This document shows positions 23,619 through 64,000 of a stretch of 64,000 nucleotides of DNA, one piece after another (position 1 is the first letter of the stretch; each line of letters opens with the position of its first letter). Below the pieces are notes generated by a model. It worked only from the letters and a program-made list of their open reading frames with translations. It was not told where the DNA came from and did no database searches. The stretch lies in NCBI GenBank assembly GCA_017394865.1, contig JAFPWT010000006.1, forward strand, positions 79,763 through 143,762, in the 5' to 3' direction. The translations under genes and the position numbers were made by a program. This DNA comes from Bacteroidales bacterium. GTDB lineage: Bacteria; Bacteroidota; Bacteroidia; Bacteroidales; F082.

Positions 23619-23660
23619 GATACCATGATAGATAAATATAAACAAATAACAACAGATACA

Positions 23661-32873: not shown

Positions 32874-32996
32874 ATGAACAGAAAGCAAACCCTCTACAAA
32901 GTCCTTGTGGCGATCATGATTTTCGTTGGTATGGCCTTCGGGCAACAGGCCATGGCCGAGTGGAGGCCCTCAATTGACATTATATATAAACAATGA
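32874..32996 (+). CDS. 40-aa signal-peptide-only ORF overlapping the next gene
   Basis: ATG 32874 opens a 40-codon frame, MNRKQTLYKVLVAIMIFVGM and onward, that reads as a full signal peptide (FGQQAMA-EW) followed by only about 13 residues and TGA. Its stop overlaps the start of the 1235-aa gene as ATGA (32993-32996). The GQQAMA end resembles GQQAFA in the protein at 21455. It may be a coupling leader for translation of the giant gene, or the remains of a secreted protein whose body was lost. Confidence 0.5.
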   Translation: MNRKQTLYKVLVAIMIFVGMAFGQQAMAEWRPSIDIIYKQ

Positions 32997-35900
32997 GCAA
33001 AACAGCAAAAACAACAAAGCACAATAATAGCCTAGCTCGAACGGTCATGACACTGTTCATGATGCTGGCGATGACACTAACGGCATCGGCCACGGACTTC
33101 ATCACCGATGTGATGGTTCTCGGCGACGATAACAAAACTTCGTTCTACAGCCAGTTAAGCGAACTCACGGCACAGGGCTGGATCGACATTAACTATGACT
33201 TGAACGAGTCCTGCGGCGCCGGCACCGACTACATCCACCTGCTCTATAAAAAACAGAGCAGCTCGGGCAACACTGGCGTGCCCATCACCGACTTCTACAT
33301 CAGGACAGGCAAATATCCCCCCGGCAGCCTAACCCACGGAGGACGCACCTACTATCTTGTTCCATACGATGGAAGTGACGATTTCATAGATAGTGAAGGA
33401 GACCTGAACAACCATGCAGGTGGCGACTACATCCACCTCTACTACACCAAGGATGCCTTGGCGAACAGCCACGGAGTCACTGGCATTACCTTCAACACCA
33501 CCCAAAGCGGTGCCGTGGGCGCAAACGGCGGCGGCACCGGTTACGACCTCAACGAAGGCTGCGGCTCCCAGTCCGCCTACGTCTATATGCACATCGCCAC
33601 CACCTCGGGGGCAAACGTGGTGACGTTGAGTTCGGGCAGTGGAAACGTACAACTCCAAAACGGTCATATACTCACAGGCACGGGCGGCGAAGACACCCGA
33701 GTCACCATCACCGACGGTGCCACGGTGACCTTGAACGGCGTGAACATCACCGCCATCGCCAATGACTATAACCACATGTGGCCAGGCATCAATTGTTTGG
33801 GCAACGCCGTCATCGTCTTGGGTGGCGGCACAACAAACACCATAAGAGGGGGAGATAATAGTTCCGGCATCTACGTACCTGAAAACGAGACCCTCACCAT
33901 CCAAGGCAGCGGAACACTCAACGTCACTGGCGGTTCTAATGGTGCGGGCATCGGCAGCAACTTTATTCAATCCTCTTGTGGCAACATTACTATCAACAGT
34001 GGCACTGTCAACGCCGCTGGCGGCAATTATGCTGCGGGTATTGGCAGCAGCCACGGCAGCAATTCCTCTTGCGGCAACATCACCATCAACGGCGGCTCCG
34101 TCACAGCCACTGGCGGTACTCGTGGTGCGGGTATCGGCAGCGGTGAATACAAATCCTCTTGCGGCAGCATTTTTATCAACGGCGGCACCGTCACAGCCAC
34201 TGGCGGAGAAAATGCTGCGGGTATCGGCAGCGGCTTCAACAATTCCTCTTGCGGCAGCATCTCTATTACCCAAGGCGTGACCCGCGTCACCGCCACAAAA
34301 GGCTCCGGATGCAACAACGCCATCGGTGCTGGCTATAATAGCAGCTGCCAATCCGTCACCATCGGCGGCGTGGAGACAGGCTCCATCACACAAAGTCCCT
34401 TCACCACCTTCCCCTACACGGTCGCCTTCAATGCCAACGGCGGCACAGGCACCATGACCAACATGAACTTCATGTATAACGTGGCACAAAACCTCACAGC
34501 CAATGCCTTCACCAACGGGGGACGTCAGTTCTTAGGATGGGCCACTTCGGCCAACGGGCAAAAAGTCTATAACGATGGGCAGAGCGTGAGCAACTTGACA
34601 CAGACTGCAGGTGCCACCGTGACGTTATACGCGAAATGGGCAAACACGGTAACACTGACACAACAAATCGGAGAAGTGCTGCTCCAAAACGGTGAAACGC
34701 TTACTGGTACGGGGGGCCAAAACACCCGCGTCAAAATTGCCGACGGCGCCACGGTGACCTTCAGCGGCGTGAACATCACCGCCATTGTCGATGACGAAGA
34801 CCACATTTGGCCAGGCATCAATTGTTTGGGCAACGCCGTCATCGTCTTGGGTGGCGGCACCACAAACACCATAAATGGTGGATATTACAGTTCCGGCATC
34901 TACGTGCCTGAAAACAAGACCCTCACCATCCAAGGCAGCGGAACGCTCAATGCTACTGGCGGAAAACATGGTGCGGGTATCGGCGGCGGCCGCAAATCCT
35001 CTTGCGGCAACATCACCATCAGCGGCGGCTCCGTCACAGCCACTGGCGATTTTGGTACTGCGGGTATCGGAAGCGGCTACTACCAATCCTCTTGCGGCAA
35101 CATTACCATCAATGGCGGCACCGTCACAGCCAATGGCGGTGATTATTCTGCGGGTATCGGCAGCGGTAGAAACTACTCCCCTTGCGGGAGCATCTCTATT
35201 ACCCAAGGCGTGACTCGCGTCACCGCCACAAAAGGCTACAATTGCGACAATGCCATCGGCGCGAGCATTAATAGCAGCTGCCAGTCCGTCACCATCGGCG
35301 GCGTGGAGACAGGCTCCATCACACAAAGTCCCTTCACCACCTTTCCCTACACTGTCGCCTTCAATGCCAACGGCGGCACGGGCACCATGGCCAACCAGGT
35401 TTTCATGTACAACGTGGCACAGCCCCTTTCCGCCAATTCCTTCACCTGTACAGGCTACACGAAGGATGGATGGGCCACCACACTTAACGGACCGAAGGTG
35501 TATAACGACGGGCAGAGCGTAACCAACCTGACGGAAACCACCGTGACACTCTATGCAAGATGGAATGCCCTCAAGGCCATCGCCGGCTACGGCGAAAGCA
35601 CCACCAGCGGATGGAATTTGATAGCCTTGCCCATCGAGGGAAGCATCGCAGCCGAAGCCGTGGGCAACATCTTCAGTGCGGCGGAATACGACCTCTACCG
35701 CTTCAACCAAAACGCGGAACAGGAATGGGAGAATTGGAAAAGCCATGCCAACAACGACGACCACTACCACTTCAACCTTGAGAGCGGTCGCGGCTATCTC
35801 TACGCCAGCCAAGCCTACACCACCTTGGTGTTCTGCGGAACGCCATATAGTGGTAATGGCCAAGTGACGCTACACAAGACCGATGGCGCTCGATTGGGAG

Positions 35901-36700
35901 GATGGAACCTCATCGGCAACCCCTTCATCACGTCCAAGACCATCGGCGGCAAGCCATTCTACCGCATGAACGAACTCGGCACCGAAATCATCGCCGCCGC
36001 CAATCCCACCATCGCCGCCATGGAAGGCATCTTCGTGGTGGCCAACACGAACGGCGAAACCATAACCTTCGCCGATCCTACGAGAGGCCGCGAGAGCGAG
36101 GAACGCATCATCATCAACCTTTGCAACAACAACACCGCCGTCATCGACCGTGCCATCGTGCGCCTCGGCGAGGGCGAGGCACTGCCCAAAATGCAAATCC
36201 GCGACAACAACACAAAGATTTATTTATCGCAGGGCGGCAAGGACTACGCCATCGCCAACGCCGAAACCACAGGCGAAATCCCCATCAGTTTCAAGCCCTC
36301 GGAAAACGGCACTTACATCATTTCGGTAAATCCCGAAGGCATGGAGATGGACTATTTGCATTTGATTGACAATCTAACTGGCATGGATGTTAACCTACTG
36401 GCTTCACCTTCTTACACCTTCAATGCCAAAACTACGGATTATGCCTCCCGTTTCAAATTAGTGTTTTCCGCCAATGGAAACGCTGACAGCGAAGAGGTCC
36501 CCTTTGCCTTCCTCAGCAACGGCAACATCATCGTCAATGGTGACGGAATCGTCCAGGTGATTGACATGATGGGACAGATTATCGTTCAACGTAGAGACGG
36601 TGCATGCACCGTCTCTACAGACGCAATGGCCCCCGGCGTGTATGTGTTGCGGTTGATTAACGGCGATAAAGTAAAGACACAAAAAATTGTCATCCAATAA
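32993..36700 (+). CDS. T9SS-exported surface protein with duplicated beta-helix and InlB-type repeats
   Basis: This 1235-aa protein has a signal peptide (TVMTLFMMLAMTLTASA). An N-terminal domain contains ITDVMVLGDDNKTSF and DYIHLLYKK, repeated as DYIHLYYTK. Two near-identical halves follow. Each has a TLTIQGSGTLN start, many GAGIGSG-SSCGNITI-NGGTVTA turns of a right-handed beta-helix, and a VAFNANGGTGTM...LYAKW InlB-type module. The conserved WNLIALPIEG...YDLYRFNQ...GRGYLYAS domain and a T9SS tail (TQKIVIQ) end it. A 28-nt GTAGAGACG palindrome is inserted in frame in the sorting domain. It is probably an adhesin or glycan-binding protein. The terminator at 36731 ends the unit. Confidence 0.83.
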   Translation: MSKTAKTTKHNNSLARTVMTLFMMLAMTLTASATDFITDVMVLGDDNKTSFYSQLSELTAQGWIDINYDLNESCGAGTDYIHLLYKKQSSSGNTGVPITDFYIRTGKYPPGSLTHGGRTYYLVPYDGSDDFIDSEGDLNNHAGGDYIHLYYTKDALANSHGVTGITFNTTQSGAVGANGGGTGYDLNEGCGSQSAYVYMHIATTSGANVVTLSSGSGNVQLQNGHILTGTGGEDTRVTITDGATVTLNGVNITAIANDYNHMWPGINCLGNAVIVLGGGTTNTIRGGDNSSGIYVPENETLTIQGSGTLNVTGGSNGAGIGSNFIQSSCGNITINSGTVNAAGGNYAAGIGSSHGSNSSCGNITINGGSVTATGGTRGAGIGSGEYKSSCGSIFINGGTVTATGGENAAGIGSGFNNSSCGSISITQGVTRVTATKGSGCNNAIGAGYNSSCQSVTIGGVETGSITQSPFTTFPYTVAFNANGGTGTMTNMNFMYNVAQNLTANAFTNGGRQFLGWATSANGQKVYNDGQSVSNLTQTAGATVTLYAKWANTVTLTQQIGEVLLQNGETLTGTGGQNTRVKIADGATVTFSGVNITAIVDDEDHIWPGINCLGNAVIVLGGGTTNTINGGYYSSGIYVPENKTLTIQGSGTLNATGGKHGAGIGGGRKSSCGNITISGGSVTATGDFGTAGIGSGYYQSSCGNITINGGTVTANGGDYSAGIGSGRNYSPCGSISITQGVTRVTATKGYNCDNAIGASINSSCQSVTIGGVETGSITQSPFTTFPYTVAFNANGGTGTMANQVFMYNVAQPLSANSFTCTGYTKDGWATTLNGPKVYNDGQSVTNLTETTVTLYARWNALKAIAGYGESTTSGWNLIALPIEGSIAAEAVGNIFSAAEYDLYRFNQNAEQEWENWKSHANNDDHYHFNLESGRGYLYASQAYTTLVFCGTPYSGNGQVTLHKTDGARLGGWNLIGNPFITSKTIGGKPFYRMNELGTEIIAAANPTIAAMEGIFVVANTNGETITFADPTRGRESEERIIINLCNNNTAVIDRAIVRLGEGEALPKMQIRDNNTKIYLSQGGKDYAIANAETTGEIPISFKPSENGTYIISVNPEGMEMDYLHLIDNLTGMDVNLLASPSYTFNAKTTDYASRFKLVFSANGNADSEEVPFAFLSNGNIIVNGDGIVQVIDMMGQIIVQRRDGACTVSTDAMAPGVYVLRLINGDKVKTQKIVIQ
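33620..35560 (+). repeat. Tandem duplication of about 1 kb within the 1235-aa protein gene
   Basis: The stretch from about 33.62 to 34.64 kb is repeated from about 34.65 to 35.56 kb. Blocks around 33781 and 34811, and around 34342 and 35275, are almost identical for 60-75 nt at a time. The central GAGIGSG turns differ more in number and sequence. Confidence 0.75.
36591..36618. repeat. 28-nt GTAGAGACG palindrome inserted in a T9SS sorting domain
   Basis: A perfect 28-nt palindrome with outer arms GTAGAGACG and CGTCTCTAC. It is translated in frame as the RRDGACTVST region of the 1235-aa protein, a segment without counterpart in the giant protein at 23.7 kb. Confidence 0.9.
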
Positions 36701-36844: not shown

Positions 36845-39800
36845 ATGAAACTTCTACCAAGAATGAAAAACAACATAACCAGGGCAGCTGTCATGCTGCT
36901 GCTTACATTTATGGCCTCCGCCACGGCGTGGGCTGATCCCGACCTCGTCATCCGTTCGGCAGCCGATTGGAACACCTTCGCTGACAATGTCAACAACGGC
37001 ACGTCTTATCAAGGTCAGACTGTGGTTTTGGCCGCAGACATCAGTGTAACAACGATGGTGGGCATCAATACTCAACCCTTCGATGGAACCTTCGACGGTT
37101 GCGGACACACGCTCAATCTCAACCTCACAAACGGTGGCTATTACACTGCCCCTTTCAGTAAAATACAAGGAGCTACCATCAAAAATCTTAAGACAACTGG
37201 AACGGTGACCGGTGGTATGCATTGCTCCGGACTTGTGGGCATAGCGTTCCTAACCAACCTCATTCAAAACTGCGAAGTGGCGGTTTCAGTGGTTTGCAGC
37301 GGTGGCAATCACTCTCACTGCGGCGGTATTGTAGGACACGGTGGGGACTCAAACACCACAATCCGCGACTGTCTCTTTTCGGGCAGTATAGAAGGTGCCA
37401 CCCAAAAAACAGGCATCATCTATGGTTGGGCCAACAATGGCACACATACCCTCATCAATTGCCTGGCAGCTGGCACTTACATCAATTGCGGTGGATTGGA
37501 CATCATACAGCCAAGAGGAACTGTCAATGTCTCCAACTGTTACAAGACGCAGAACGTCGGTAATTATGGCACCTACACCACTGCTACTGGCGAAACGCTG
37601 AGAGCCCTGCTCGGCGACGGCTGGGAGGTGAGCGGCAACAATGTGGTGCCGGTGATGGTCAACAGCTTTGAGGTGCCGAACGTATCATATTTTGCCTACA
37701 ACACGACGACACAGACATTTGAAACACTTACGGCGAATGTTTGCAGGATAGTCACCTCCAGCACCACAACGATGGGAGTTGCCAATACCGAGACGTGGTA
37801 TGTGGTGAACAACACCGTCACCGTGAACAGCAGCCGTATCGAGGTGCTCGGCACGGTGAATTTGATTCTTGCCGACGGCAAGACATTCAGGGCCGAAAAA
37901 GGTCTCCATGTGCCCGATGGCGTGACCCTCAACATCTACGGCCAGAGCAGCGGCACAGGCAAACTCTTCTGCGCCTCTGAGGCAGACTATCTTGCCGGTA
38001 TTGGCGGCAACAATGACGAAACAAGCGGCACCATCAACATCCATAGTGGCAGAATTGAGGCATACGGCAACTATCTGTCGGCGGCCATTGGCGGTGGTCG
38101 CGCCGCCAATGGCGGTACTACAACCATCTATGGCGGCACAGTCAATGCCACAGGCGGCACCTATGGCGCAGGCATTGGCGGCGGTGCAAACGGTAACGGT
38201 GGCACCATTACTATCATCGGTGGCACGGTCATAGCCCAAGCAGGAACCGTGGACGGAAATGACAACAGCCAGGCCATCGGCTCTGGTGCCATTGGTTCTG
38301 GTGGTACCCTGATGCTTGGTGACATGAAAGTGTACGCCAGTGCGGAAGCCACAAATCCCGTTACATACGCCAACCGCGTAAGCACCTGCCATTCCAAATA
38401 CGCGAAACTTGTGCCATGCACCGACCATAACTACGTCAACGGCGTATGTAACTATTGCGGTGCCATGCCCAACGTTCCTGTGACGTATCTTGCTTATCAG
38501 ACGACGACACATACATTTGCGGAGCAGACGGTGAGCGAAACCACGTTGGTCGATGAATTTACCACAACGATGGGGGCCGACAACACCGAGACGTGGTACG
38601 CAGTGAGAAGAGGCGTTTCAAACGACAACCGCATCGAGGTCAGGGGTACGGTACACTTGATTCTCTGCGACGGCAAGACGCTGACCGCCTCGAAAGGCAT
38701 CACTGTCAATAACGGCAACACATTGATCATCTACGGGCAGAGCGGCGGCACCGGTGCGCTGAATGCCACAGGCTTTGAGGCAGGTGGTAACATTTACGAA
38801 TGTGCAGCCATAGGAAGCACAGGACGCACATCTCTTGGAGATATTACCATTCATGGAGGTCGTATCACTGCCACTGGCGTTGCATGGACGGCAGGCATTG
38901 GCGGTGGTATCGGCAGTGGCGAAGGCTCGATTACTATCTATGGAGGTACCATCAACGCCACAGGCAACAGCGGAAACTCAGAGGCCATCGGCCACGGTGC
39001 CGACGGTGCCAATGTCACAAGAACCCTTATCGACGGACTACGCGTGACCACTGGCAGCAATACGACTCCTGTTGCGTATAGCGACCGATTATCAGGTCTT
39101 AGTCAAAAAGTAGCCAGAGTTGAGCCTTGTACGGAGCACCATACCACCACCGATCATTGCGACTATTGCGGCATCACCTGCTACGCTGTCGCTTACGACG
39201 GCAACAATGCCACAAACGGAACAGTTCCCGTTCCCAACACGACCTATCTACCTGGTGCGACGGTTACTGTGCTTGGCAATACGGCTAATCTGGAACGCAC
39301 GGGCTACACCTTCGCCGGATGGAATACCAAGGCCAACGGCAGCGGCACCACCTACACCGCTGGTGCGACCTTCACCATCAATGGCACCACCACGCTCTAC
39401 GCCAAGTGGGCACCCATTACCTATACCGTCCGCTTCCATAAGAACCACGACGATGCGACTGGCACAATGAGCGACTTGACGCTGACTTATGATGTCGCAC
39501 AACCTCTCACCACCAATGCCTTCATCCGCAATGGCTATGCCTTAGTGGGATGGAGCACCATCGCCAACGGTACAGTGGCCTATACCGACGGTCAGAGCGT
39601 AAGCAATCTCGCCACCGAGCAGAATGTCGTGGTCAACCTCTATGCCCAGTGGACCGAACTCTACACCATCGGCTACGACCTCGCTGGCGGCAGCGTAGCG
39701 ACACCCAACCCCACTACCTACACAGTATTGAGCAATGCCATCACTCTCGTCAATCCTACCCGCGAAGGCTACACCTTCACGGGATGGACGGGCACCGGCC

Positions 39801-42478
39801 TCACCGAGCCGACGATGACGGTCACCATTCCTGCCGGCTCCACGGGCAACCGAGAATACACCGCCACTTGGATAATGACCTCGATGACACTGAGGAACAC
39901 CGCCGACAACAGCGCAATCATTGCCGAAGCCAACGAAAAGTTGCTTGAAAGTGTAACTCTCGCCGATCGCACTCTCTACCGCAACGGCGACTGGAACACG
40001 CTCGTCCTGCCTTTTAACCTCAACAGTCTCACAGGCACACCGCTCCAGAGATTCAAATTGAAGACGCTCTCAAGTTCGACCTACAGCGACGGTACACTCA
40101 CGATGAACTTCGCAGACGCCTCAACCATCGAGGCTGGCAAGCCCTACATCGTAAGATATGAAGAAGCCGACCTCGTCATCAGTTCTACTGCCGACTGGAA
40201 CAGCTTTGTCAATAAAGTAAAAAATGGCACAACTTACCAAGGCAAGATAGTGAAACTCGCCGCCGACATCACTATTTCTCAAGAGGTGGGCACATACAAC
40301 AAGTTTTTCAAGGGTACTTTTGACGGTGGCGGACATACGCTGACCCTCAACATCACATACACTAACGCTAATAGTTGCTTGGGACCTTTCCGCTACATCG
40401 AAGGTGCCACAATTAAAAACCTCTTTGTTGATGGAACCATCACCTCAATGGGCCATGGTATTAGCGGCTTAGTGGGATCTTCCAGAGGGACGGTAACCAT
40501 TTCAAACTGCGTAGTCAGTGCCAGCATCACCAGCACCATGAGCAACGATGAAGGCAGAAATGGCGGCTTTGTCGGAGAGATAAGGACTGGTAGTGTCACC
40601 ATCAACAACTGTGCATTTAATGGGAGACTGCTTGGTCCAAATTGCACAACAAATGGCGGTTTCATAGGAGATAAATATGACTCCAGTTACCCTGCCGTGT
40701 TCAACAACTGCTTGTTTGCTCCTTCCCAAGTCACCATGGGTTCCTCCAATAGCGGTACATACATCAACACGAAATACAACAACCCTGTCAACACTACATT
40801 CAACAACAGCTATTATAAAACACAATTCGGCTCAAAGCAGGGAACAAAAACTACTTATACAGGCACAGCGCTTAAAAATCAGCTTGGCAATGGCTGGGAA
40901 GTTGTCAATGGCGATGTGGTGCCGAAGATGGAGAGAACCCCCAGCAACATCGTGAATCCCGTGTTCACCAATGTCACCATCAACGAAGCCACAACCAATG
41001 TTAGCACCACCTACGCCGACTTCATCGGCAGCTATGCGCCTTTTAACAATGATGCTCTGCTTCTCGATGCCCTCAACCCCAACGGAGACGCACAACATGC
41101 CGCCCTCAACATTACCGCCCCCACCGCACCAACGGGCTTCACCTTTGGCGGCTGGTACTCCGACGCCGAACTAACGGCTCCTGTCACTACCATCCCCTTT
41201 GCCACCAACGGCACGGTCACGCTCTATGCCAAATGGATACCCACGCTCACCGTGGCAGGTTACGGCACAGGCACCGACAAATGGGTGTTTATCGCCTCAC
41301 CGGTTGCGGGAAGCATCGCACCTGATGATGTCGTCAACCTTTTAGGCTCGCAGATTTCCGAAAATCCTGTGTTGTACAATTACGACCTCTACCGCTTCAA
41401 CCAAAGCCCCGCCATGAGCAACGACGGTCGTTACTTGGAATGGGAAAACTATCACCAGCACAACACACAGCAAGATCCTTTCCTGTTGGTTAATGGCCAA
41501 GGCTACCTCTATGCCCGGCAGAACAATGTCAACCTGTTTTTCAATGGCACGTTGAACACTGGCAATGTGATGAGCGTAAACCTTGACTACGATGGAAGCG
41601 CACGGCTCAAAGGCTACAACCTCGTGGGCAACCCGTTCCCGTGCGAGGCCTACGTCAACAGGCCGTTCTACAGGATGAACGATGCAGGCAACAACATTGA
41701 ACCCGTGGCGAACTATGATTCCTACACTCCAACCACCATCCCACCCTACACCGGCATCATCGTGAAAGCCGACGGAGCCAACGAGAGCGTCACCTTCAGC
41801 ACGTCGGCACCTGCAACCTCGACAGGCAACCACGGCAACCTCGCCATTACTTTGTCGCAACAGACAGAAACCACTCGTGGCAGTTCCACAACGGTAACCC
41901 ACGACAAGGCTTTCGTCAGTTTCAACGAAGGCAGTCGGTTGGGGAAATTCTATTTCGGCGAACAGAACGGCAACATCTATATCCCGCAGGGCGGTGAGGA
42001 ATATGCTATCGTTTCCGTTGGTGGTAGAGACGCAATGCATTGCGTCTCTACAGAGATTCCGGTCAATTTCAAGGCCACGAAGGACGGCACCTACACCCTC
42101 ACGGTGAATCCCGAGGAAACGGAGATGGCCTATCTGCACTTGATCGACAACCTCACGGGCACCAACGTGGACCTGCTCCAGACCCCGAGCTACACCTTCG
42201 AGGGCAAGACCACCGACTACGCCTCGCGTTTCAAATTGGTGTTCAGCGCACGGAAGAGCATCGAGGAGATTGGCGATGAAGGTTTCGCGTTCATCCACGA
42301 TGGCGAGATCATCATCGAGGCTGATGGCATCATCCAGGTGATTGACATGCTGGGCCGTGTCCTTGTCAACCGCGATGCCAACGAGCGCATCACCACCGAC
42401 GGCCTCGTCGGCGGGGTATATGTATTGAGATTAATTAATGGCGAAATTGTGAAGACGCAAAAAATTGTTGTGAAATAA
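36845..42478 (+). CDS. Giant T9SS-exported surface protein with GLUG-like, beta-helix and InlB-type repeats
   Basis: This 1877-aa protein has a signal peptide (MLLLTFMASATAWA). A GLUG-like module (DLVIRSAADWNTFADNVNNG, FDGTFDGCGHTL) recurs near 40.17 kb as DLVISSTADWNSFVNKVKNG. Two beta-helix blocks (37.8-38.35 and 38.63-39.05 kb) are each followed by a short Cys/His motif (HNYVNGVCNYCG; HHTTTDHCDYCG) that looks like a half zinc ribbon. InlB-type modules lie at 39.2-39.87 kb. The FIASPVAG...YDLYRFNQ...GQGYLYAR domain and T9SS tail (TQKIVVK) end the protein. A 28-nt palindrome is inserted in frame at 42024. A remnant of the small tail gene follows. It is a likely adhesin, with modules shared among the three giant genes. 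Confidence 0.83.
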   Translation: MKLLPRMKNNITRAAVMLLLTFMASATAWADPDLVIRSAADWNTFADNVNNGTSYQGQTVVLAADISVTTMVGINTQPFDGTFDGCGHTLNLNLTNGGYYTAPFSKIQGATIKNLKTTGTVTGGMHCSGLVGIAFLTNLIQNCEVAVSVVCSGGNHSHCGGIVGHGGDSNTTIRDCLFSGSIEGATQKTGIIYGWANNGTHTLINCLAAGTYINCGGLDIIQPRGTVNVSNCYKTQNVGNYGTYTTATGETLRALLGDGWEVSGNNVVPVMVNSFEVPNVSYFAYNTTTQTFETLTANVCRIVTSSTTTMGVANTETWYVVNNTVTVNSSRIEVLGTVNLILADGKTFRAEKGLHVPDGVTLNIYGQSSGTGKLFCASEADYLAGIGGNNDETSGTINIHSGRIEAYGNYLSAAIGGGRAANGGTTTIYGGTVNATGGTYGAGIGGGANGNGGTITIIGGTVIAQAGTVDGNDNSQAIGSGAIGSGGTLMLGDMKVYASAEATNPVTYANRVSTCHSKYAKLVPCTDHNYVNGVCNYCGAMPNVPVTYLAYQTTTHTFAEQTVSETTLVDEFTTTMGADNTETWYAVRRGVSNDNRIEVRGTVHLILCDGKTLTASKGITVNNGNTLIIYGQSGGTGALNATGFEAGGNIYECAAIGSTGRTSLGDITIHGGRITATGVAWTAGIGGGIGSGEGSITIYGGTINATGNSGNSEAIGHGADGANVTRTLIDGLRVTTGSNTTPVAYSDRLSGLSQKVARVEPCTEHHTTTDHCDYCGITCYAVAYDGNNATNGTVPVPNTTYLPGATVTVLGNTANLERTGYTFAGWNTKANGSGTTYTAGATFTINGTTTLYAKWAPITYTVRFHKNHDDATGTMSDLTLTYDVAQPLTTNAFIRNGYALVGWSTIANGTVAYTDGQSVSNLATEQNVVVNLYAQWTELYTIGYDLAGGSVATPNPTTYTVLSNAITLVNPTREGYTFTGWTGTGLTEPTMTVTIPAGSTGNREYTATWIMTSMTLRNTADNSAIIAEANEKLLESVTLADRTLYRNGDWNTLVLPFNLNSLTGTPLQRFKLKTLSSSTYSDGTLTMNFADASTIEAGKPYIVRYEEADLVISSTADWNSFVNKVKNGTTYQGKIVKLAADITISQEVGTYNKFFKGTFDGGGHTLTLNITYTNANSCLGPFRYIEGATIKNLFVDGTITSMGHGISGLVGSSRGTVTISNCVVSASITSTMSNDEGRNGGFVGEIRTGSVTINNCAFNGRLLGPNCTTNGGFIGDKYDSSYPAVFNNCLFAPSQVTMGSSNSGTYINTKYNNPVNTTFNNSYYKTQFGSKQGTKTTYTGTALKNQLGNGWEVVNGDVVPKMERTPSNIVNPVFTNVTINEATTNVSTTYADFIGSYAPFNNDALLLDALNPNGDAQHAALNITAPTAPTGFTFGGWYSDAELTAPVTTIPFATNGTVTLYAKWIPTLTVAGYGTGTDKWVFIASPVAGSIAPDDVVNLLGSQISENPVLYNYDLYRFNQSPAMSNDGRYLEWENYHQHNTQQDPFLLVNGQGYLYARQNNVNLFFNGTLNTGNVMSVNLDYDGSARLKGYNLVGNPFPCEAYVNRPFYRMNDAGNNIEPVANYDSYTPTTIPPYTGIIVKADGANESVTFSTSAPATSTGNHGNLAITLSQQTETTRGSSTTVTHDKAFVSFNEGSRLGKFYFGEQNGNIYIPQGGEEYAIVSVGGRDAMHCVSTEIPVNFKATKDGTYTLTVNPEETEMAYLHLIDNLTGTNVDLLQTPSYTFEGKTTDYASRFKLVFSARKSIEEIGDEGFAFIHDGEIIIEADGIIQVIDMLGRVLVNRDANERITTDGLVGGVYVLRLINGEIVKTQKIVVK
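42024..42051. repeat. 28-nt GTAGAGACG palindrome, in-frame copy in the 1877-aa protein
   Basis: A perfect 28-nt palindrome with arms GTAGAGACGC and GCGTCTCTAC. It encodes GRDAMHCVST, an insert in the IVSVGG...EIPVNFKA segment that the paralogues lack. The position differs from the copies at 22004 and 36591. Confidence 0.9.
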
Positions 42479-56405: not shown

Positions 56406-58496
56406 CTATTTCTTTCTGATCAATACGATCATATCCTTGCTACTATCATCAAAGCCGAAATAGCTAACTCTCATATCAATATACCCGTTTTTATCTGTAC
56501 CAACATATCCTTCTTTAGCTTGCATTGTTTTCACCATAATAATACTGTATTTAGAAGTGATATCCCCACCATTCTTCAAAGTGAACTTCATGTAATACTC
56601 TGGCAAAAAGTCACATTCATATATATATTGATATTTTATTACATCTCCATTGGGCAAATTAATACTTCCCGAGGATTTATTTTTGAACAAACTTTCAGAA
56701 AAAGAAATAGTAACCTTGTAATCATAACTGCCCATTCCAGAAGTTGGCTTATTTTTATTGGGATCAGTAGCTCCAGATCCCCCCGATCCTGTTGAAGAAT
56801 TATTACTCCCTTTATTACCACCAGATGGCTTATTTGAAACATTCGGCTTCTGATTAATAGATGGCTCTCGATTAGGTTGTTTCTTTTCCTCTGCAGCTTT
56901 CAACAAAGCCTCTTTGGTGAGCTCTCCATCACGTTTTGTCACCTCTCTTGCTAACTGCAACACTTCAGCACCTGTTAGTTTTTTCTCGTTTGCCACCGAA
57001 GATATAATACAAGCTGCACGCGGAGCAGCAAAGGAGGTACCGTACTTATCTTTCCCCTCATACGTAAAATCAGAAATATCCACCCTCGTTACCCAGGGAT
57101 CATAATGACCAGTTTCAATTTCATTAGAATATGTACTTACAAAACGTACCATATCTTGAGCATTACGCCTATTTGTGTCATATTTAACAATCAAATCCTG
57201 TTGATTGTTACGATTCGCCTTATCATACTCTTTTTTGTAATCCTCCTCTATTTTCTTAAAGTGAGCAACTCTCTCTTCTTCCCCTGCGGATACGATCAAA
57301 AAATGCTTATCCATGATTTCCAATTCGTCAGGGTCAAGATTCTTTCGCAAATAAGAAATAATCGCCGCATCAAATTCTTTCACACCATTATTACCAGCAG
57401 ACTTAACAACAACAAAATCCTTCCCCTGTAATGGTTTAACAACCTCAATATAGCTTTTCATACTATTTAAAAATCTCTCTTGGTAGTCTTCTCTCTCTTC
57501 TACAGTAGCCGAATCCCAGTAATATCTTTCTGAATCTTCTCGCTGACGCAAATATGGCCCAAACGACATATTAATGAAAATAGGCCCATGGTTAGGTGAC
57601 GAAAGAATATCGTGTATAGCAAAAGCCGAGTTGTCCGCAGACATGGAATTCCATTTCTTTTTAATATTCATCCTTTTTCCGTCCTTTGTGCCAATATTGT
57701 AAGGTTTTATTGGAATTGTATTATCGCATTCCTGCATGGCAAATTGAACAATTAATCCATGAGCTGTTGTGTCATTCAAATCTGACTTATCTGAATAAAA
57801 GTTATCCAAAATATAGTTATTCACAGCACATGGAAAGGAAACAATATTCGGATACGCCCAATCAACACCAGTTTTTTGTTGTATCTTTTTGAGAAAGTTT
57901 TGCACATAATCAGCCGGAACTTCCACTAAATAATAACCGTCTTCAGGAATTTGCGCCACGATTTTCCCACCCGACGACTTGATGTCTCTTTGAGCATCTT
58001 TGTATGAGATTCCTTTTTCAAACCACACACACACCTGTCCTTCGATGGCTTCAATGGAATAGGGAGTCCCGTCCTCATCCATCATGTTAACAACAACCAC
58101 TTGAGGATACTCTCCTTTGAATGCAAACATCTCTGGTGAACTCTGTCTATGTGAGAGCAGAACTATCACCAGCACCAACGCCACAACAAACAAGGCTCCG
58201 CCTACTGAACCCAATATTACAGGTAAGGCGTTGGATTTTTTTGGTTGCGGGATTGGTGAAAAATAGCTCTGCCACGGAATGGAGGTATGGCCTAACTTTA
58301 CCGTGTCGTAAGTTTGCAGTTGGGTCTCGCCGAACACACGTCTACCACTCACAAACGTGCCATTGGAGCTATTCAAATCCACGATGGTGTAAGTACCATC
58401 ATCGTGTTGCACAATCTGACAATGATTCCGTCCAACATACGGATCATCAAGCTTGATGTCGTTGTTGGAACTTCTACCTATTGTAACTACCCTCAT
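56406..58496 (-). CDS. FHA - transmembrane - subtilisin-like (S8) protease fusion
   Basis: This 696-aa protein has an N-terminal FHA domain (residues 1-75: TIGRSSNNDIKLDD, GRNHCQIV, LNSSNGTFVSG). A basic PQPKKSN stretch leads into one membrane segment (91-115), predicting a cytoplasmic FHA and an extracytoplasmic remainder. Residues about 165-216 look like an I9-type propeptide (IPEDGYYLVEVP...VDWAYPN). The subtilase core follows with D231 (NNYILDNF), H246 (TTAHGLIV), oxyanion Asn in KSAGNNG and nucleophile S488 in YGTSFAAPRAA. The Asp-His spacing of 15 is short for the family. A Ser/Gly/Asn-rich linker and a beta-rich end domain close it. The closest neighbours are kinases and other FHA proteins, so its protease may be governed by phosphothreonine binding. 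Confidence 0.8.
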   Translation of the reverse strand: MRVVTIGRSSNNDIKLDDPYVGRNHCQIVQHDDGTYTIVDLNSSNGTFVSGRRVFGETQLQTYDTVKLGHTSIPWQSYFSPIPQPKKSNALPVILGSVGGALFVVALVLVIVLLSHRQSSPEMFAFKGEYPQVVVVNMMDEDGTPYSIEAIEGQVCVWFEKGISYKDAQRDIKSSGGKIVAQIPEDGYYLVEVPADYVQNFLKKIQQKTGVDWAYPNIVSFPCAVNNYILDNFYSDKSDLNDTTAHGLIVQFAMQECDNTIPIKPYNIGTKDGKRMNIKKKWNSMSADNSAFAIHDILSSPNHGPIFINMSFGPYLRQREDSERYYWDSATVEEREDYQERFLNSMKSYIEVVKPLQGKDFVVVKSAGNNGVKEFDAAIISYLRKNLDPDELEIMDKHFLIVSAGEEERVAHFKKIEEDYKKEYDKANRNNQQDLIVKYDTNRRNAQDMVRFVSTYSNEIETGHYDPWVTRVDISDFTYEGKDKYGTSFAAPRAACIISSVANEKKLTGAEVLQLAREVTKRDGELTKEALLKAAEEKKQPNREPSINQKPNVSNKPSGGNKGSNNSSTGSGGSGATDPNKNKPTSGMGSYDYKVTISFSESLFKNKSSGSINLPNGDVIKYQYIYECDFLPEYYMKFTLKNGGDITSKYSIIMVKTMQAKEGYVGTDKNGYIDMRVSYFGFDDSSKDMIVLIRKK

Positions 58497-58552
58497 GACA
58501 TTTACTATTTACAAACGCCGCTTCCAACAACCCCACGTAACGGCTTTATACA

Positions 58553-59971
58553 CTAATTTTTACTCTTATTAAACCTCTTCAAATTCTTCATGAAGTCATC
58601 GGGGCCTTTGATGGACACGCGCTGGCCGTAATACACTTCGGCAGCGTCAGCGATCTCCTTGACGAAGGAGGTGCAGCTGTAATTGTAGAAATAGTATGAC
58701 GGCGTTGAGTTTCTTAATTCATCGAGCTTTGATAGCGCTTGATTGATTTGCATGTCAGTAACATAAATAGAGCAACTATCGGTGGCATAGCCTTTCAGCC
58801 AACTGTGGTCAACAATACTCCCTTCGGAATCAAACAATTCGCCATCTTGAGAGCCAAAGCCCCAATAGCCACCATATCGGAGTCCGACAAAGACATGACC
58901 CGTTTTGCTTTTTTCACCTCTCCTGGTCCTATCGCCGCGGCTCCACTTGTAGAACGTAATCTTGTTGTTAGCTGGTGCTTGTTGGTAATACCAAATAGAC
59001 CCTTGGCTTTGATAAATCTCGCTAGGAGCGTTCATGACGTAAGGCGTAATTCTACCTTGGGTTCCTACAGGGGTATTTCTATGTTGCGACGCACTGTAAG
59101 CCGGCACCGAAATTTTGTATTTCTGACGAGGAGCCAATGTCACTTCTTGACGTTCGGTAACCACCAGATTTTGGGCATCCAGCGCTTCCGATTCGATCAT
59201 TGAACCTTGGTCGACCACCACGCTCAATGCTTTGTCAGTATTGTTTTTCAGATAAAGATCCACCATGTAATGGTTATCGGAGCTTGAGGTCGAAGCCCAG
59301 ATATTACGGGACTCCACAAGCACTTCGTTCTTCACCATACGGCGGAACAAACAAATCGGGGTGGTGTCAATGTGCATTTTCAGGTCATGCAAAGGCCTGA
59401 CCACAAGCAGATGCTCATAAGAATAGTCACAAGAATGATAGTATTCTGCAAGGTCGGCTGATGCCTCCGCAATCAACTTTGCTCCTCCAGTGCCTTCAAC
59501 CTTTTTGAGGTCTTTCATTTGCGACTCTTTTTTCAGCAAGGCATTTTCCAGTGTGGTAGCTCTGGGTACATTGATCGTCGCAGGCTCGTACTCGCACATA
59601 TCGATAGTCGTTTTGCCCCAGTTCAGCCACAAGAAGACCGCCACAACTGCCGCTATCAGCAGCACGCCGCCCACACTGATCAGGATGGCGGGCAGTGCAT
59701 TCGATTTGTGTTTTTGGGGTGTAGGAATAGGAGTGAAGTAACTCATCCAAGAGATATTGGAATTACCGACGGTCACACTGTCGGAAGGTTGCAGCTGGGA
59801 TTCGCCATAAATGCGGTTGCCGTTTACAAAAGTGCCATTGGTGCTGTTAAGATCCACAATGGAGTATGTCCCGTTGTCTTGTTGCACAATCTGACAATGG
59901 TGCCGCCCAACGTACGGGTCGTCGAGTTTAATGTCGTTGCTTGAACTTCTACCTATTGTAATTATTCTCAT
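58553..59971 (-). CDS. FHA - transmembrane - permuted papain/NlpC-like domain protein
   Basis: This 472-aa protein has the same FHA domain as its neighbour (residues 1-75: TIGRSSSNDIKLDD, GRHHCQIV, LNSTNGTFVNG) and the same PKxKSNALP-type junction into a membrane segment (93-116). Residues 120-330 are a beta-rich part with HYMVDLYLKNNTDKALSVVV and APRQKYKISVPAYS. The last 130 residues contain SKTGHVFVGLRYGGYWGFGS (H359) and, about 70 residues later, YNYSCTSFVKEIADAAE (C433). His before Cys is the order of circularly permuted NlpC/P60-type cysteine hydrolases. The enzyme assignment is inference; the FHA assignment is firm. It lies between the MORN protein and the FHA-subtilase. Confidence 0.75.
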   Translation of the reverse strand: MRIITIGRSSSNDIKLDDPYVGRHHCQIVQQDNGTYSIVDLNSTNGTFVNGNRIYGESQLQPSDSVTVGNSNISWMSYFTPIPTPQKHKSNALPAILISVGGVLLIAAVVAVFLWLNWGKTTIDMCEYEPATINVPRATTLENALLKKESQMKDLKKVEGTGGAKLIAEASADLAEYYHSCDYSYEHLLVVRPLHDLKMHIDTTPICLFRRMVKNEVLVESRNIWASTSSSDNHYMVDLYLKNNTDKALSVVVDQGSMIESEALDAQNLVVTERQEVTLAPRQKYKISVPAYSASQHRNTPVGTQGRITPYVMNAPSEIYQSQGSIWYYQQAPANNKITFYKWSRGDRTRRGEKSKTGHVFVGLRYGGYWGFGSQDGELFDSEGSIVDHSWLKGYATDSCSIYVTDMQINQALSKLDELRNSTPSYYFYNYSCTSFVKEIADAAEVYYGQRVSIKGPDDFMKNLKRFNKSKN

Positions 59972-59986
59972 GATATTCTGTTTTTA

Positions 59987-61543
59987 TTACTGTTTATTAT
60001 CACCTTGCCAATAGCCCGATGAGATGACATCACCTGCATTAGAAATAAAGACGCCATAGCCCGAGCGTTCGCCATATTCAAAATCACCGTACCACATGTC
60101 ACCCTTATAGGTCCATATCAGCATGCCTTTTCCGTGGGCTTTTCCGTTTCTGGTCTCGCCCACATAATAGCAACCGGAAGAATAGTCATAGCACTTGAAC
60201 ATCAAGTTTTTGTTCTCTGAATCGGCGGGATAGGTTTGAATATGGTTATCGTTGGAAAAGCGTCCGTCATAAATCAGGTGGCCGTAAGAATCGTAGCATC
60301 TTCCCGCACCTGATTTTACATTGTTGCTCCATTCTCCAACATAGAATGTGCTACGCTCACAATTCTTGACACTCTTTCCTTTTGCCGCGATATAGATACC
60401 GACACCGTCTCTGGATCCTGCATTCCAACTACCGATATAGCGTGCACCGTTATTCCAAGAATACATGCCCAGTCCTGAACGATTTCCGTTCTTGAGTTGA
60501 CCTTTGTACGACCCATCCGATCCATAGTCTTGCGATGCGTGGTCCTTACAACGCGACAGTGCATTTCTCCAATAGTCTTGGACGATCGCGTCACCGCTCT
60601 TGTTGCCGATGTAAATATCGGTTTCATAAATCATACGGTCTTCATGCCAGATTTGGAACGTATAATTGCCCGGGATAAAAAAGCCTTGGGTGGAACTGCC
60701 GTAACTTGACAGCTGGAGGTTGTTGTCCTTGCCTGTCATTACCAAGAATGAATCCATGAATGTATATCGGGAAGAGTTGGAAGAGACTTTCAACTTGCCA
60801 TTAGGATCGAAGATTTTACATGATATGGTAACTGCTTCAGGCATATCAAGTATTCCATCGTAAACAATTCTTGGCGTCAGGAACTTCAAGTCAGCAGCAT
60901 AAATCGCTGAGCCAAAGCCACTCAAGACATTATCATTGTCATCGAGGTTTGCAAATTCAACCCTTCGGATGTTCATATAGGCTGTTTGTCGTGCCTGTTT
61001 CCGCAGTTCTTCCCTTCTTTTGTTGTCGCGGTCAACGATTTTCTTTCTTTGTGCCTTAACTTTATTAATATGATCAGCTGGCGCTGAAGTACCTTGATAT
61101 GTAATCAAATAGTTTAAGCAATCCCCTTCTTCTGCGCTGCTGGACATACACCAATTAAACAAATCTCTCTCTGCGTTTTTGTCGTACGAACTTGACTTTT
61201 GCTTATTACCCCCTTTATGTTGATTCGCTTCCGCAGAATGCATCCCGCGAGGATACTTTTTCAAGTATTTATCGTAGTTACCAGCCAGTTGGCATTCCAA
61301 GAAAAGTTTATCATCCGCAATTTTATTATTACAATCCGCAATTTTAGCATTGACGTCTTTATAACCTTTACAGCCATCCTTTCTTTCATTAAGGAACTTA
61401 AAAGTATTTAAAGCACTTTGGTATTTTTTTGCATTGTAATCTTTCATTGCGGCATCATACAAAACAGAGCAATCCTGTTTCTGCGCCAGACTAGCCAGAG
61501 AAAAAAGATAAAAGGCTGCAATTAAAAGTAAAACTCTTTTCAT
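59987..61543 (-). CDS. Periplasmic MORN-repeat protein of the FHA/kinase cluster
   Basis: This 518-aa protein has a signal peptide (LLLIAAFYLFSLASLAQ). A TPR-like helical start (SVLYDAAMKDYNAKKYQSALNTFKFLN) is followed by a charged coiled region (KAQRKKIVDRDNKRREELRKQ), and a beta-sandwich (GNYTFQIWHEDRMIYETDIYIG). About six MORN units then run from residue 365 to the end, for example GSYKGQLKNGNRSGLGMYSW, ARYIGSWNAGSRDGVGIY, FYVGEWSNNVKSGAGRCY and DMWYGDFEYGERSGYGVF. MORN repeats bind proteins or lipids as scaffolds. Being exported, it could meet the extracytoplasmic parts of the FHA proteins and kinase. It starts 23 bp after the kinase gene. Confidence 0.8.
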   Translation of the reverse strand: MKRVLLLIAAFYLFSLASLAQKQDCSVLYDAAMKDYNAKKYQSALNTFKFLNERKDGCKGYKDVNAKIADCNNKIADDKLFLECQLAGNYDKYLKKYPRGMHSAEANQHKGGNKQKSSSYDKNAERDLFNWCMSSSAEEGDCLNYLITYQGTSAPADHINKVKAQRKKIVDRDNKRREELRKQARQTAYMNIRRVEFANLDDNDNVLSGFGSAIYAADLKFLTPRIVYDGILDMPEAVTISCKIFDPNGKLKVSSNSSRYTFMDSFLVMTGKDNNLQLSSYGSSTQGFFIPGNYTFQIWHEDRMIYETDIYIGNKSGDAIVQDYWRNALSRCKDHASQDYGSDGSYKGQLKNGNRSGLGMYSWNNGARYIGSWNAGSRDGVGIYIAAKGKSVKNCERSTFYVGEWSNNVKSGAGRCYDSYGHLIYDGRFSNDNHIQTYPADSENKNLMFKCYDYSSGCYYVGETRNGKAHGKGMLIWTYKGDMWYGDFEYGERSGYGVFISNAGDVISSGYWQGDNKQ

Positions 61544-61566
61544 TTATTTCAGTTTAAAATTAACTA

Positions 61567-63048
61567 TTATGGCCTCAACTGAACAGCAATGGCACTCCCG
61601 TTTTCAGATTGGCGTAAGACATTATCGATCAAAGTGATTTTTTCTTTTTGATCTATATAGTAAATATTGTTCTCAACATCATCTATTTGCAAAGCAAGAA
61701 ATTCTCTTAACTCGTCATTCACGCTCCGCTTTGCTCGCTCCAATTCTGTTCTATACGATGAGAGTTCGTGCTTAAACATTGGAATAAGTCCCGACTTTTT
61801 GAAATCAGGATCTTGTTCATCCTGCTCTATTTCTTTCAGTTTGTCCAGAGCCTGAATAATGAAAAACTTATTACCCACATTCCCGTCTTTATCTTTGACA
61901 ATACTACCAATAGCCCTGTCACAATCCTGAACTTTCTTATTATACGACTGCCTGAACCTCTCCATTCTTGCTTCGTCAACCACCTCCTGCTTATCATCGG
62001 CACGGTTATTAACGACCACGGCGACCGTGACGCCGATCACCAGCATGAAGAAGACTCCCAGTAGTATCCATAGCCAAGCCAAGCTTTTCTTTCGTGGAGC
62101 TTCAGAAACTGGTACAGGCCCTTGTGGAGGAACACCTTGTGGAGAGCGGCCTTGCGGACCATACATATCAACGGGTGCCGTCATAGCCTCACCGCCCAGC
62201 AAGTCATACATGAAGTCGCTCACTGTCTGATAACGGTCTTCCGGCTTCAGTTCCATGGCCTTCATGATGGTTCCACTGACCTTCTCTGAAATATCGGGAA
62301 ACAGTTCTCTCGGTGATTTCAGCGGTTCCATCATTCGGGTGGTGGCGTCGATGGGTTTCACGCCCGTCAACAGGAAATAGAACACGCCGCCCAAAGCATA
62401 GATGTCAGTGTAGTTTCCCTTCTTGCTCGTTGTGGAATACTGCTCCAACGGGGCATAACCTTGGGTGAGTATGGCGGTTTGGTTTTGAACCTCGTCATGA
62501 ACAAACTCTCTGGCCGAACCAAAGTCAATCAAGACCACACGATTGTCGGGAGTGATGATCACGTTGTCGGGTTTGATGTCGCGGTGAAGGATGTGCTTGC
62601 TGTGGATATACGACACGGCTTCCGCCAGCTGTCCCATGCAATTCACGGCGTCCATGAACGACATTTTGCCTTCCGTCTCGATTTTCTGCTGCAGGGTGAT
62701 GCCTGGGACGAACTCCATCACGATGTACGAAGTGTTGTTCTCATCGAAGATATCGATCACTCTGACCACATGGGGGTTGTTCAGCGAGACCAGGGTGCGT
62801 GCCTCGTCAGCGAAACGCTTTTTCAATTTGGCGTATCTGGCAGGATCGATGTCCTGCAGATATACCGTGCTCCTGTCAGGGTCTCTGACGCATTTTCCGC
62901 TGATAAAAAACTCTTTGACCGCATAATGAACGTTTAGTTCAACATGACGCACAAAGTAGGTTATTCCGAAGCCGCCGGCACCGATGACTTTCTCCACAAC
63001 ATATCGTCCACCGCCAAAGGTCTTCCCTATTTCCAAAGTATTGCTCAT
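61567..63048 (-). CDS. Hanks-type Ser/Thr protein kinase with one membrane segment
   Basis: This 493-aa protein has a complete kinase domain (about 15-285): glycine loop VIGAGGFGITYF (22-28), K45 in YAVKEFF, HRDIKPDNV with D157, LIDFGSAREF with the DFG at 175-177, GYAPLEQY as the P+1 region, and DIYALGGVFYFLLTG. A Pro/Gly-rich juxtamembrane stretch ending PRKKS leads to a membrane helix (323-346). The extracytoplasmic part of about 147 residues is largely helical (ERFRQSYNKKVQDCDRAI, MFKHELSSYRTELERAKRSV). This sensor differs from PASTA kinases. Likely partners are the three FHA proteins beside it. Confidence 0.92.
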   Translation of the reverse strand: MSNTLEIGKTFGGGRYVVEKVIGAGGFGITYFVRHVELNVHYAVKEFFISGKCVRDPDRSTVYLQDIDPARYAKLKKRFADEARTLVSLNNPHVVRVIDIFDENNTSYIVMEFVPGITLQQKIETEGKMSFMDAVNCMGQLAEAVSYIHSKHILHRDIKPDNVIITPDNRVVLIDFGSAREFVHDEVQNQTAILTQGYAPLEQYSTTSKKGNYTDIYALGGVFYFLLTGVKPIDATTRMMEPLKSPRELFPDISEKVSGTIMKAMELKPEDRYQTVSDFMYDLLGGEAMTAPVDMYGPQGRSPQGVPPQGPVPVSEAPRKKSLAWLWILLGVFFMLVIGVTVAVVVNNRADDKQEVVDEARMERFRQSYNKKVQDCDRAIGSIVKDKDGNVGNKFFIIQALDKLKEIEQDEQDPDFKKSGLIPMFKHELSSYRTELERAKRSVNDELREFLALQIDDVENNIYYIDQKEKITLIDNVLRQSENGSAIAVQLRP

Positions 63049-63094
63049 GACACAATATTACAATTCCGGATACAAAAATGATTTCGAGTTTTTT

Positions 63095-63721
63095 TTATAA
63101 CATGTAAGATACCAAAACGAGACCGAAGATCAAGTTATAGATAACGTAGACCACAGAGAACACCACGGTAATAATGCTCAATGCCAGGCCTGCTTTCAAC
63201 ATGCCGGTACCTCTATAATTTCCGCGACGTGCCTTGCCCAAGCCCGTTGCTGACAAAATCAAGCCAATGACACCCATTATAAATGCTATGATTACCAAGG
63301 CAAAGCCAAAATAAGCAGGTTCAGGATTCCATGTGGAACTTAACGTGCAGAGCAAAAAGCCCACTAAGAAGAAGAATAAGCCCAACGCTCCGAGAATCAA
63401 ACCACCAGGTGATGCAGTGCGGACTTCACCATCAGGAGTATTACCACCCGGGGGGATACTGCCACCAACAAGATTGATAACGCTACTCCAGTCGAGCTGT
63501 GCCGAGTCGGCGAACATGATTCTGTCGCCATATTTGACTTGTCTCGACGAATTGTGTAACAACTGGCCGTTCACGGTTGTGCCGTGTGTGCTCTTGTCAA
63601 TCAGCGTATACGTACGGTCCGGGTTAACAAACAATTCCGCATGGAAGCGGCTTACTCTGTCTGTTCTGTCAAGAATCACGATGTCATTTTGTGATGATCT
63701 TCCGATAGAAATCTTATTCAT
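63095..63721 (-). CDS. FHA-domain membrane protein
   Basis: This 208-aa protein starts with an FHA domain (residues 1-80: KISIGRSSQNDIVILDRTDRVSRFHAEL, LIDKSTHGTTVNGQLLH). Unlike its neighbours it has the canonical SRFH. A short Pro/Gly linker is followed by three hydrophobic segments (LILGALGLFFFLVGFLLCTL, YFGFALVIIAFIMGVIGLIL, LALSIITVVFSVVYVIYNLI). The last two resemble DUF4190-type membrane regions. It has no enzyme domain and may recruit phosphorylated proteins to the membrane. It lies between the two kinases in the same direction. Confidence 0.82.
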   Translation of the reverse strand: MNKISIGRSSQNDIVILDRTDRVSRFHAELFVNPDRTYTLIDKSTHGTTVNGQLLHNSSRQVKYGDRIMFADSAQLDWSSVINLVGGSIPPGGNTPDGEVRTASPGGLILGALGLFFFLVGFLLCTLSSTWNPEPAYFGFALVIIAFIMGVIGLILSATGLGKARRGNYRGTGMLKAGLALSIITVVFSVVYVIYNLIFGLVLVSYML

Positions 63722-63759
63722 AATTCAAATTTTTTAATTAATACTATATTAAATTCATT

Positions 63760-64000
63760 TTATCTTCTTCTACGCATATAATTTGTGATGGCTCTTTTGA
63801 ACTCTTCGCACGACTGGTAGCGCTGTGAGGGCAGTTTGGCCAGGGCATGCTCGACGATCATTTGAAGCTCATCACTGATGGGCGGGTAATATTTTTTCAT
63901 TTGCGGGGTGGGGTCGTTTTGGATTTTGTTTTTGATTTCGCTCAACGCCTCCCGCACGTTTGGGTTTTGCGAGGTGAAGGGCAAGGTTCCCGTAAGCATC
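63760..64000 (-). CDS. Ser/Thr protein kinase, C-terminal fragment (cut by window edge)
   Basis: The visible 80 residues read MLTGTLPFTS at the edge, then ISDELQMIVEHALAKLPSQRYQSCEEFKRAITNYMRRRR to the stop. This is the end of a Hanks kinase C-lobe: the L.TG..PF segment after the helix F region, and the A..K.P..R......F motif before the last helix. The start lies beyond 64000. It stops right after the kinase domain with no membrane segment, so it is probably a soluble kinase and the first gene seen of the leftward cluster. Confidence 0.85.
   Translation of the reverse strand, partial: MLTGTLPFTSQNPNVREALSEIKNKIQNDPTPQMKKYYPPISDELQMIVEHALAKLPSQRYQSCEEFKRAITNYMRRRR

Follow-up and report, generated by a model that had tools for sequence, protein, structure and literature searches.

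In a 64,000-nucleotide stretch of an uncultured, gut-type Bacteroidales genome (hereafter the window), six consecutive minus-strand genes encode two Hanks-type Ser/Thr kinases, three FHA proteins with transmembrane (TM) helices and an exported MORN-repeat protein (Table 1), as the original prediction had described. From 64000 to 56406 the order is cut kinase, FHA-3TM, kinase-TM, exported MORN protein, FHA-TM-papain-like candidate and FHA-TM-subtilase, with intergenic gaps of 15–56 bp. The contig (C16) stops exactly at the window edge (64000), and the sixth gene therefore comprises only the last 79 residues of a kinase. The block is thus only part of an island, inside which the contig of this 73%-complete assembly ends.

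Table 1. Genes of the kinase/FHA block, listed from the contig end inward (window positions).
Feature	Position	Strand	Basis
Kinase 1, Hanks-type; last 79 residues, cut by the contig end	63760..64000	-	BLASTP
FHA protein with three TM helices, 208 aa	63095..63721	-	Pfam FHA; DUF4190 match under its cut-off
Hanks-type Ser/Thr kinase, 493 aa; TM helix near residue 320, C-terminal region across the membrane	61567..63048	-	Pfam Pkinase
Exported protein, 518 aa: signal-peptide-like N terminus, weak BamD-like N-terminal part, middle domain, MORN repeats; likely kinase partner	59987..61543	-	
FHA-TM protein, 472 aa; orphan outer region ending in a candidate permuted papain/NlpC-P60 (Lnb_N/DUF4105-like) domain	58553..59971	-	
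FHA-TM protein with outer subtilase, 696 aa; fervidolysin-type prodomain, Asp231, His246, Asn369, GTS 486-488	56406..58496	-	

The three FHA domains are recognized by Pfam (E = 2e-19, 7e-21 and 6e-17), while TIGR03354, the model for the Fha/TagH protein associated with type VI secretion, scores the proteins at 31.7, 36.6 and 31.0 bits against a cut-off of 120.25. The nearest relatives of the FHA-3TM protein lie in L069, L058 and L139 (L and G numbers denote loci and genomes of this analysis). The complete kinase matches Pfam Pkinase (E = 6e-40), with HRD and DFG motifs that are invariant in the kinase alignment (A1), and scores 187.8 bits with the PASTA kinase model NF033483, whose cut-off is 450. 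The cut kinase is 58–63% identical (BLASTP) to kinases of L172, L161, L147, L162 and L175.

The two enzyme-bearing FHA proteins begin with a common module of FHA domain, KSNALP junction and membrane helix, 62% identical over residues 1–128, and end in different outer parts, in agreement with the original prediction. At the DNA level, identity falls from 0.73–0.90 (30-nt bins, first 150 nt) to 0.40–0.50 at about nt 331–416. Since the best match of the module elsewhere in our locus set reaches only about 54% identity, the two modules look like copies made inside the locus and given different outer parts.

In the 696-aa protein, Pfam detects a fervidolysin-type prodomain (E = 1e-8) and Peptidase_S8 (E = 1e-5; 25.3 bits against a cut-off of 21.8), and the subtilase Asp, His, Asn and Ser residues are at the expected positions. 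The sole predicted helix is at residue 88, after the N-terminal FHA domain, a topology that would place the subtilase domain outside the inner membrane. FHA-bearing homologues were found in L165, L157, L149 and L152; with the window protein these make five FHA-TM subtilases, in which the Asp, His and Asn are invariant. Four of the five also have the GTS motif that holds the catalytic serine, the exception being the short protein of L152. When 393 genomes of the order were searched with this protein, 21 matched, nearly all through the FHA domain, and only two besides its own genome (G517 and G177) matched the outer part, from residue 123–126.

The original prediction had also assigned a permuted papain-like fold to the 472-aa protein. 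The subtilase half of that claim stands, while the papain-like half is a candidate based on an H...C pattern read by eye and a match to Lnb_N (PF13387) that spans the Cys box and stays below the cut-off in a domain-only scan (E = 0.003; 17.6 bits against 22.2). The protein matched 24 of 149 genomes of the family, its own included; among the matches listed, those outside its own genome are confined to residues 1–161, and searches for relatives of the outer region returned no homologue. According to the passages available of a 2026 paper, Lnb_N/DUF4105 belongs to the permuted NlpC/P60 enzymes (DUF4105/Lnb, YiiX, LRAT, TseH), which are linked to lipid or acyl substrates (PMC12994826). The window candidate resembles these enzymes in its His-before-Cys order (by eye) and its sub-threshold Lnb_N match, and differs in scoring below the Pfam cut-off and in being fused to an FHA-TM module. 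By analogy, lipids or acyl groups may be the substrates of the domain, provided that it is real, and because of this link the earlier description of it as protease-like is doubtful.

To place the block among its relatives, we defined an island as a locus with a Ser/Thr kinase and at least two FHA genes, a definition that includes the window. A scan of named genomes with the kinase alignment (best 80 of 132 relatives) gave 79 loci; together with further loci from FHA and kinase searches and the window, and leaving out loci with fewer than two FHA genes or without a kinase and the same-contig copies L139, L140, L166, L174 and L177, a set of 62 loci was obtained. PP2C is encoded in 51 of these kinase/FHA-selected loci, a TM kinase in 60, an FHA-TM protein in 56 and an ectodomain-TM-FHA (ECD-TM-FHA) protein in 24, so that the set recurs as an association. 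The label “VWAF”, our initial guess for the ECD-TM-FHA protein, was dropped, as Pfam shows no vWA domain in the two members scanned.

The outer parts of the FHA-TM proteins are swapped between loci. Among 67 FHA-TM proteins in which a long stretch follows the first helix (a count that includes redundant copies and six many-helix proteins), the outer domain is a subtilase in five, trypsin-like in 13 (one degenerate), retropepsin-like in two and the papain candidate in one; different FHA-tethered hydrolases recur, in 19 of the 62 loci. The H, D and S columns are retained in 12 of the 13 trypsin-type proteins, that of L062 lacking the serine motif; Pfam Trypsin_2 scores above its cut-off in all three scanned (L129, L133 and L070), and the other ten assignments come from models built in this analysis. 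Both retropepsin-type proteins (L146 and L171) match a Pfam aspartyl protease. Within the genus, ten of the eleven loci L064–L074 encode a trypsin-type protein, all except L073. A search with an FHA-TM-trypsin protein was dominated by ordinary DegP-like proteases (306 of 393 genomes) and so carries no information on association. Separately, the outer part of one further FHA-TM protein (L142:7576-9306) matches DUF4836 (E = 9e-17).

The kinase and the MORN protein appear to belong together. In all nine cases found, the window included, the gene of the MORN-type exported protein follows a kinase gene at a distance of -4 to 35 bp, although some of these cases rest on weak N-terminal matches (E up to 0.002). 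MORN repeats, identified by Pfam in the 518-aa protein, are also found as the C-terminal portion of 16 kinase genes out of 223, 15 of which have a TM helix ahead of the repeats (L060 and L140 are one gene). In L146 and L171, moreover, kinases are fused to the middle domain seen in the window protein. Because of this adjacency and of the repeats found on kinases, the MORN protein is likelier to be kinase-ectodomain material than the scaffold that had been proposed, a role that found no support; the pattern suggests a detachable ectodomain or a ligand of the kinase.

The block differs in composition from its surroundings, as had been noted: its GC content is 0.434, against 0.480–0.540 in all 196 equal-sized windows to its left (step 250). 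Its next neighbor, a convergent gene 14 bp away, encodes an ABC-F ATPase that is matched in 37 of 40 genus genomes, its own included. We compared the DNA downstream of ABC-F in 13 of the 36 ABC-F-bearing relatives: the same convergent gene of about 590 aa follows directly in nine, other neighbors follow in three, and in one (G110, L258:2032-9191) about 7 kb of other genes separate the ~590-aa gene from ABC-F. Models of FtsK, PP2C, kinase and FHA (FTSK, PP2C, KIN and FHA) had no match among the 107 genes of these 13 neighborhoods. Since the block is AT-rich and sits where nine of 13 relatives carry another gene, it looks inserted, in line with the transfer as a unit that had been suggested; it is probably an insert at a variable site with its other end beyond the contig, and the site beside ABC-F may be a hot spot. 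The ~590-aa gene was not found in the window genome, which in an incomplete assembly says little. In G148 (L248:90-3119), whose ABC-F is 97% identical, ABC-F is followed by prfA in reverse orientation, a layout that the window does not share.

Based on these observations, we propose with moderate confidence that the block belongs to a Bacteroidales kinase/PP2C/FHA island that was apparently inserted here and that acts as a trans-envelope signaling device. The membrane kinase would use its C-terminal region, together with the MORN protein encoded directly after it, to detect a signal outside the inner membrane, and would phosphorylate threonines on island partners; the phosphates would be removed by a PP2C that we expect past the contig end. 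The phosphothreonines would be bound by cytoplasmic FHA domains, which would thereby cluster or position single-pass anchors, whose periplasmic halves would be swappable enzymes: a subtilase with intact catalytic residues and possibly a permuted papain-like domain that acts on lipids or acyl groups. Several observations weigh against this proposal: (i) 43 of the 62 loci have no recognized FHA-tethered hydrolase; (ii) the FHA motif is VGRxH in both window anchors but VSRxH in the first FHA domain of each of the four subtilase relatives, and phosphothreonine binding may be weaker as a result; (iii) PP2C_2 has no match in the 73%-complete window assembly, whose contig ends within the island, and FHA matches in that assembly are limited to the three of the block; and (iv) the presence of kinase and FHA genes in the locus set follows from its construction with FHA and kinase queries, which is not the case for PP2C, the hydrolases, the genes described below or gene order.

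Some relatives of the island carry genes resembling a type VII secretion system (T7SS). Such genes occur in 11 of the 62 loci, as an FtsK-type ATPase near WXG100-like genes in ten and as WXG100-like genes alone in L150. Clusters in uncultured Bacteroidales (L165:788-6321, L172:1380-8271, L161:1823-7734, L175:3505-9059, L061:9366-14358 and L057:110-8306) combine a three-domain FtsK ATPase, in several cases with an N-terminal FHA domain, with WXG100-like and polymorphic-toxin-like genes, interleaved with kinase and FHA genes. Each of 12 ATPases with three FtsK domains (eight from T7SS-like loci of the set and four from the ATPase loci L117, L122, L123 and L125, the third domain of L117 being split) has a single Walker A motif, in the middle domain. 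The two ATPases scanned have EccC/EssC models as best NCBIfam matches, under their cut-offs; the WXG100 Pfam matches of three proteins are likewise sub-threshold (E = 1e-3 to 1e-5), and a fourth protein (L057:5959-6222) has no Pfam match. We abandoned an EssB-like assignment of the 616–687-aa proteins beside the WXG100 genes, as a shared N-terminal and a variable C-terminal part, judged by eye, fit polymorphic toxins better. On a tree of 46 kinases the T7SS-like label (nine rows) requires six changes, at least four of them forced by well-supported branches, and is somewhat clustered (11 of 500 shuffles were as low); the kinases of L061 and L063, below the 44% identity limit of the tree, are absent from it, and L059 is unlabeled although its contig has the ATPase.

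These relatives raise an alternative, namely that the block regulates toxin secretion by a T7SS-like locus, with the three-domain FtsK ATPase, the WXG100 proteins and the toxins encoded past the contig end. In that case the FHA-TM-subtilase would be the processing protease for secreted proteins, a role proposed for mycosins. Mycosins of T7SSa have an N-terminal signal peptide and a C-terminal TM anchor; the 696-aa protein is, by prediction, likewise a membrane-anchored outer subtilase with an intact triad, but it has an N-terminal FHA domain and its helix at residue 88 instead. T7SS-like genes are found in 11 of the 62 loci, whereas a related ATPase is rare in genome samples (one of 393 order genomes at E<=1e-30 and, with a different query, nine of 173 genomes of the family at E<=1e-20), and the closest relatives of several block proteins are in T7SS-like loci: the two closest homologues of the subtilase region (L157 and L165), those of the kinase C-terminal region (L061 and L063) and the top two matches of the cut kinase (L172 and L161). 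The subtilase homologue of L149, in contrast, has no such genes within 21 kb. The closest kinase (74%) is encoded in G100, and at some distance on that contig lie an ATPase of this type and a WXG100-like protein; the window kinase nevertheless groups with those of G100 and G111 (support 99/97), both from plain-type islands, and nothing T7SS-like was seen in the G111 stretch C21:10000-44993. The ATPase gene lies between two kinases in L161, L165, L172 and L175, a place that in the window is taken by the FHA-3TM gene alone, but an ATPase farther upstream, as in L145, L173 and L057, would be compatible with the window. Searches of the 73%-complete window genome (E<=1e-20 and E<=1e-30) did not find the three-domain ATPase, PF01580 matched one ordinary-looking FtsK above its cut-off, and our WXG models had no match in the window genes from 44000 to the contig cut at 64000. 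Nor does the link appear fixed: in the only order-level genome with an FHA-FtsK-type ATPase, the 8.7-kb contig carries WXG-type genes and lacks a kinase. In five family genomes (G142, G085, G060, G083 and G114) the 14–18 kb around the ATPase hold no FHA match, although a kinase gene adjoins it in G142 and G085. Given the grouping of the window kinase with plain-type islands, and despite the ATPase of G100, we regard a T7SS link of the window itself as unlikely.

Two other explanations were considered. The FHA-TM modules could be constitutive, phospho-independent tethers for envelope-maintenance enzymes that merely share an operon with kinases. The VGRxH of both anchors, found also in the second FHA domain of L157, is consistent with this, and so are the FHA domains of the T7SSb ATPase EssC, which, according to the passages available of one study, lack the phosphothreonine site and bind a pseudokinase (PMC11217815). 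However, the other FHA core residues (GR, RxH and NG) are retained in all five rows of the FHA alignment A3, the window kinase keeps its HRD and DFG motifs, and PP2C accompanies most of the loci, and we consider the tether explanation rather improbable. Kinases with PP2C and FHA genes in most loci also recall the KKP type of kinase-phosphatase toxin/antitoxin or antiphage module, clusters of which are reported in Bacteroidetes too, and which shares with the islands two kinases, a PP2C and an FHA domain; KKP is described, however, with a cold-shock-domain kinase and an FHA-fused kinase (PMC11341870). The complete window kinase has neither domain (the other is cut by the contig end), and the window differs further in its membrane-spanning parts and outer enzymes. 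With the Padloc library, only the kinase matched among five window proteins, hitting 35 families that, for the best 25 of 35 examined, are mostly PD-T4-6 kinases over the kinase domain; the PP2C of a relative gave one match (PDC-M21C, E = 1e-10). A KKP-type module is therefore highly improbable.

The gene set is real, recurrent and modular, yet a variant of Ser/Thr kinase (STK)/PP2C/FHA signaling, with trans-envelope signaling as its proposed mechanism; what sets it apart is the exchange of outer enzymes on an FHA tether. The earlier statement that no described system has this set was too strong. STK/PP2C/FHA clusters are widespread in Bacteroidales: in a Parabacteroides distasonis operon (NZ_OY725779.1), FHA, FHA, PP2C and kinase genes are consecutive, although no FHA-tethered enzyme is annotated there. 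Named Gram-positive T7SS variants (T7SSc, d, e and others), reported from Bacillota and Actinomycetota with ATPases of four NTPase domains, likewise combine a TM Ser/Thr kinase with an outer part, a PPM phosphatase and FHA proteins, as far as the passages on them go (PMC11217815), and the FtsK-type ATPase and/or WXG100-like proteins of the 11 loci add to the likeness. The Bacteroidota loci differ in that the ATPases have three FtsK domains with the single Walker A in the middle one, in that FHA-TM-enzyme anchors are present, and in having no predicted membrane helix outside the ATPase part; the ATPase and WXG100 features, moreover, belong to relatives, none having been seen in the window genome. 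Mobile T7SS-like loci with solo WXG proteins and a YueA-like ATPase, in which the middle of three FtsK/HerA domains is the sole active one, were predicted in Bacteroidetes and other lineages in 2012; the ATPases of the window's relatives share this arrangement, while the passages on those loci do not mention kinase, PP2C or FHA partners (PMC3482391). Literature searches among open-licence papers found no description of FHA-tethered periplasmic proteases or of this island.

More speculatively, the islands could reflect a general Bacteroidales strategy in which one FHA-TM module is recombined with several periplasmic protease classes (subtilase, trypsin-like and retropepsin-like) and other enzymes, so that a Thr-kinase/PP2C circuit switches periplasmic proteolysis and, in some lineages, controls a T7SS-like toxin exporter with the FHA-subtilase as processing protease. 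We hold this extension to be conceivable but doubtful. Phospho-control of the anchors, if real, would let Ser/Thr phosphorylation inside the cell act directly on hydrolysis in the periplasm, bypassing transcription, for which the natural domain swaps, with constant tether and varied enzyme, offer a test; through the T7SS-like relatives, T7SS-type export under phospho-control would also reach a Gram-negative phylum, and passage of the outer membrane would then become a question.

Promoter and terminator scans gave matches at chance level. Proteins of 827–971 aa that combine two or three FHA domains with several TM helices close to the end were seen at L127:4703-7570, L130:5131-8046, L128:6682-9525, L132:3600-6449 and L131:1605-4088, adjoining kinase or FHA genes in L127, L130, L131 and L132; as a guess, they are possibly FHA-ABC transporters. 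The plus strand of the window contains very long open frames at 23625-31175 (2516 aa), 32993-36700 (1235 aa) and 36845-42478 (1877 aa).

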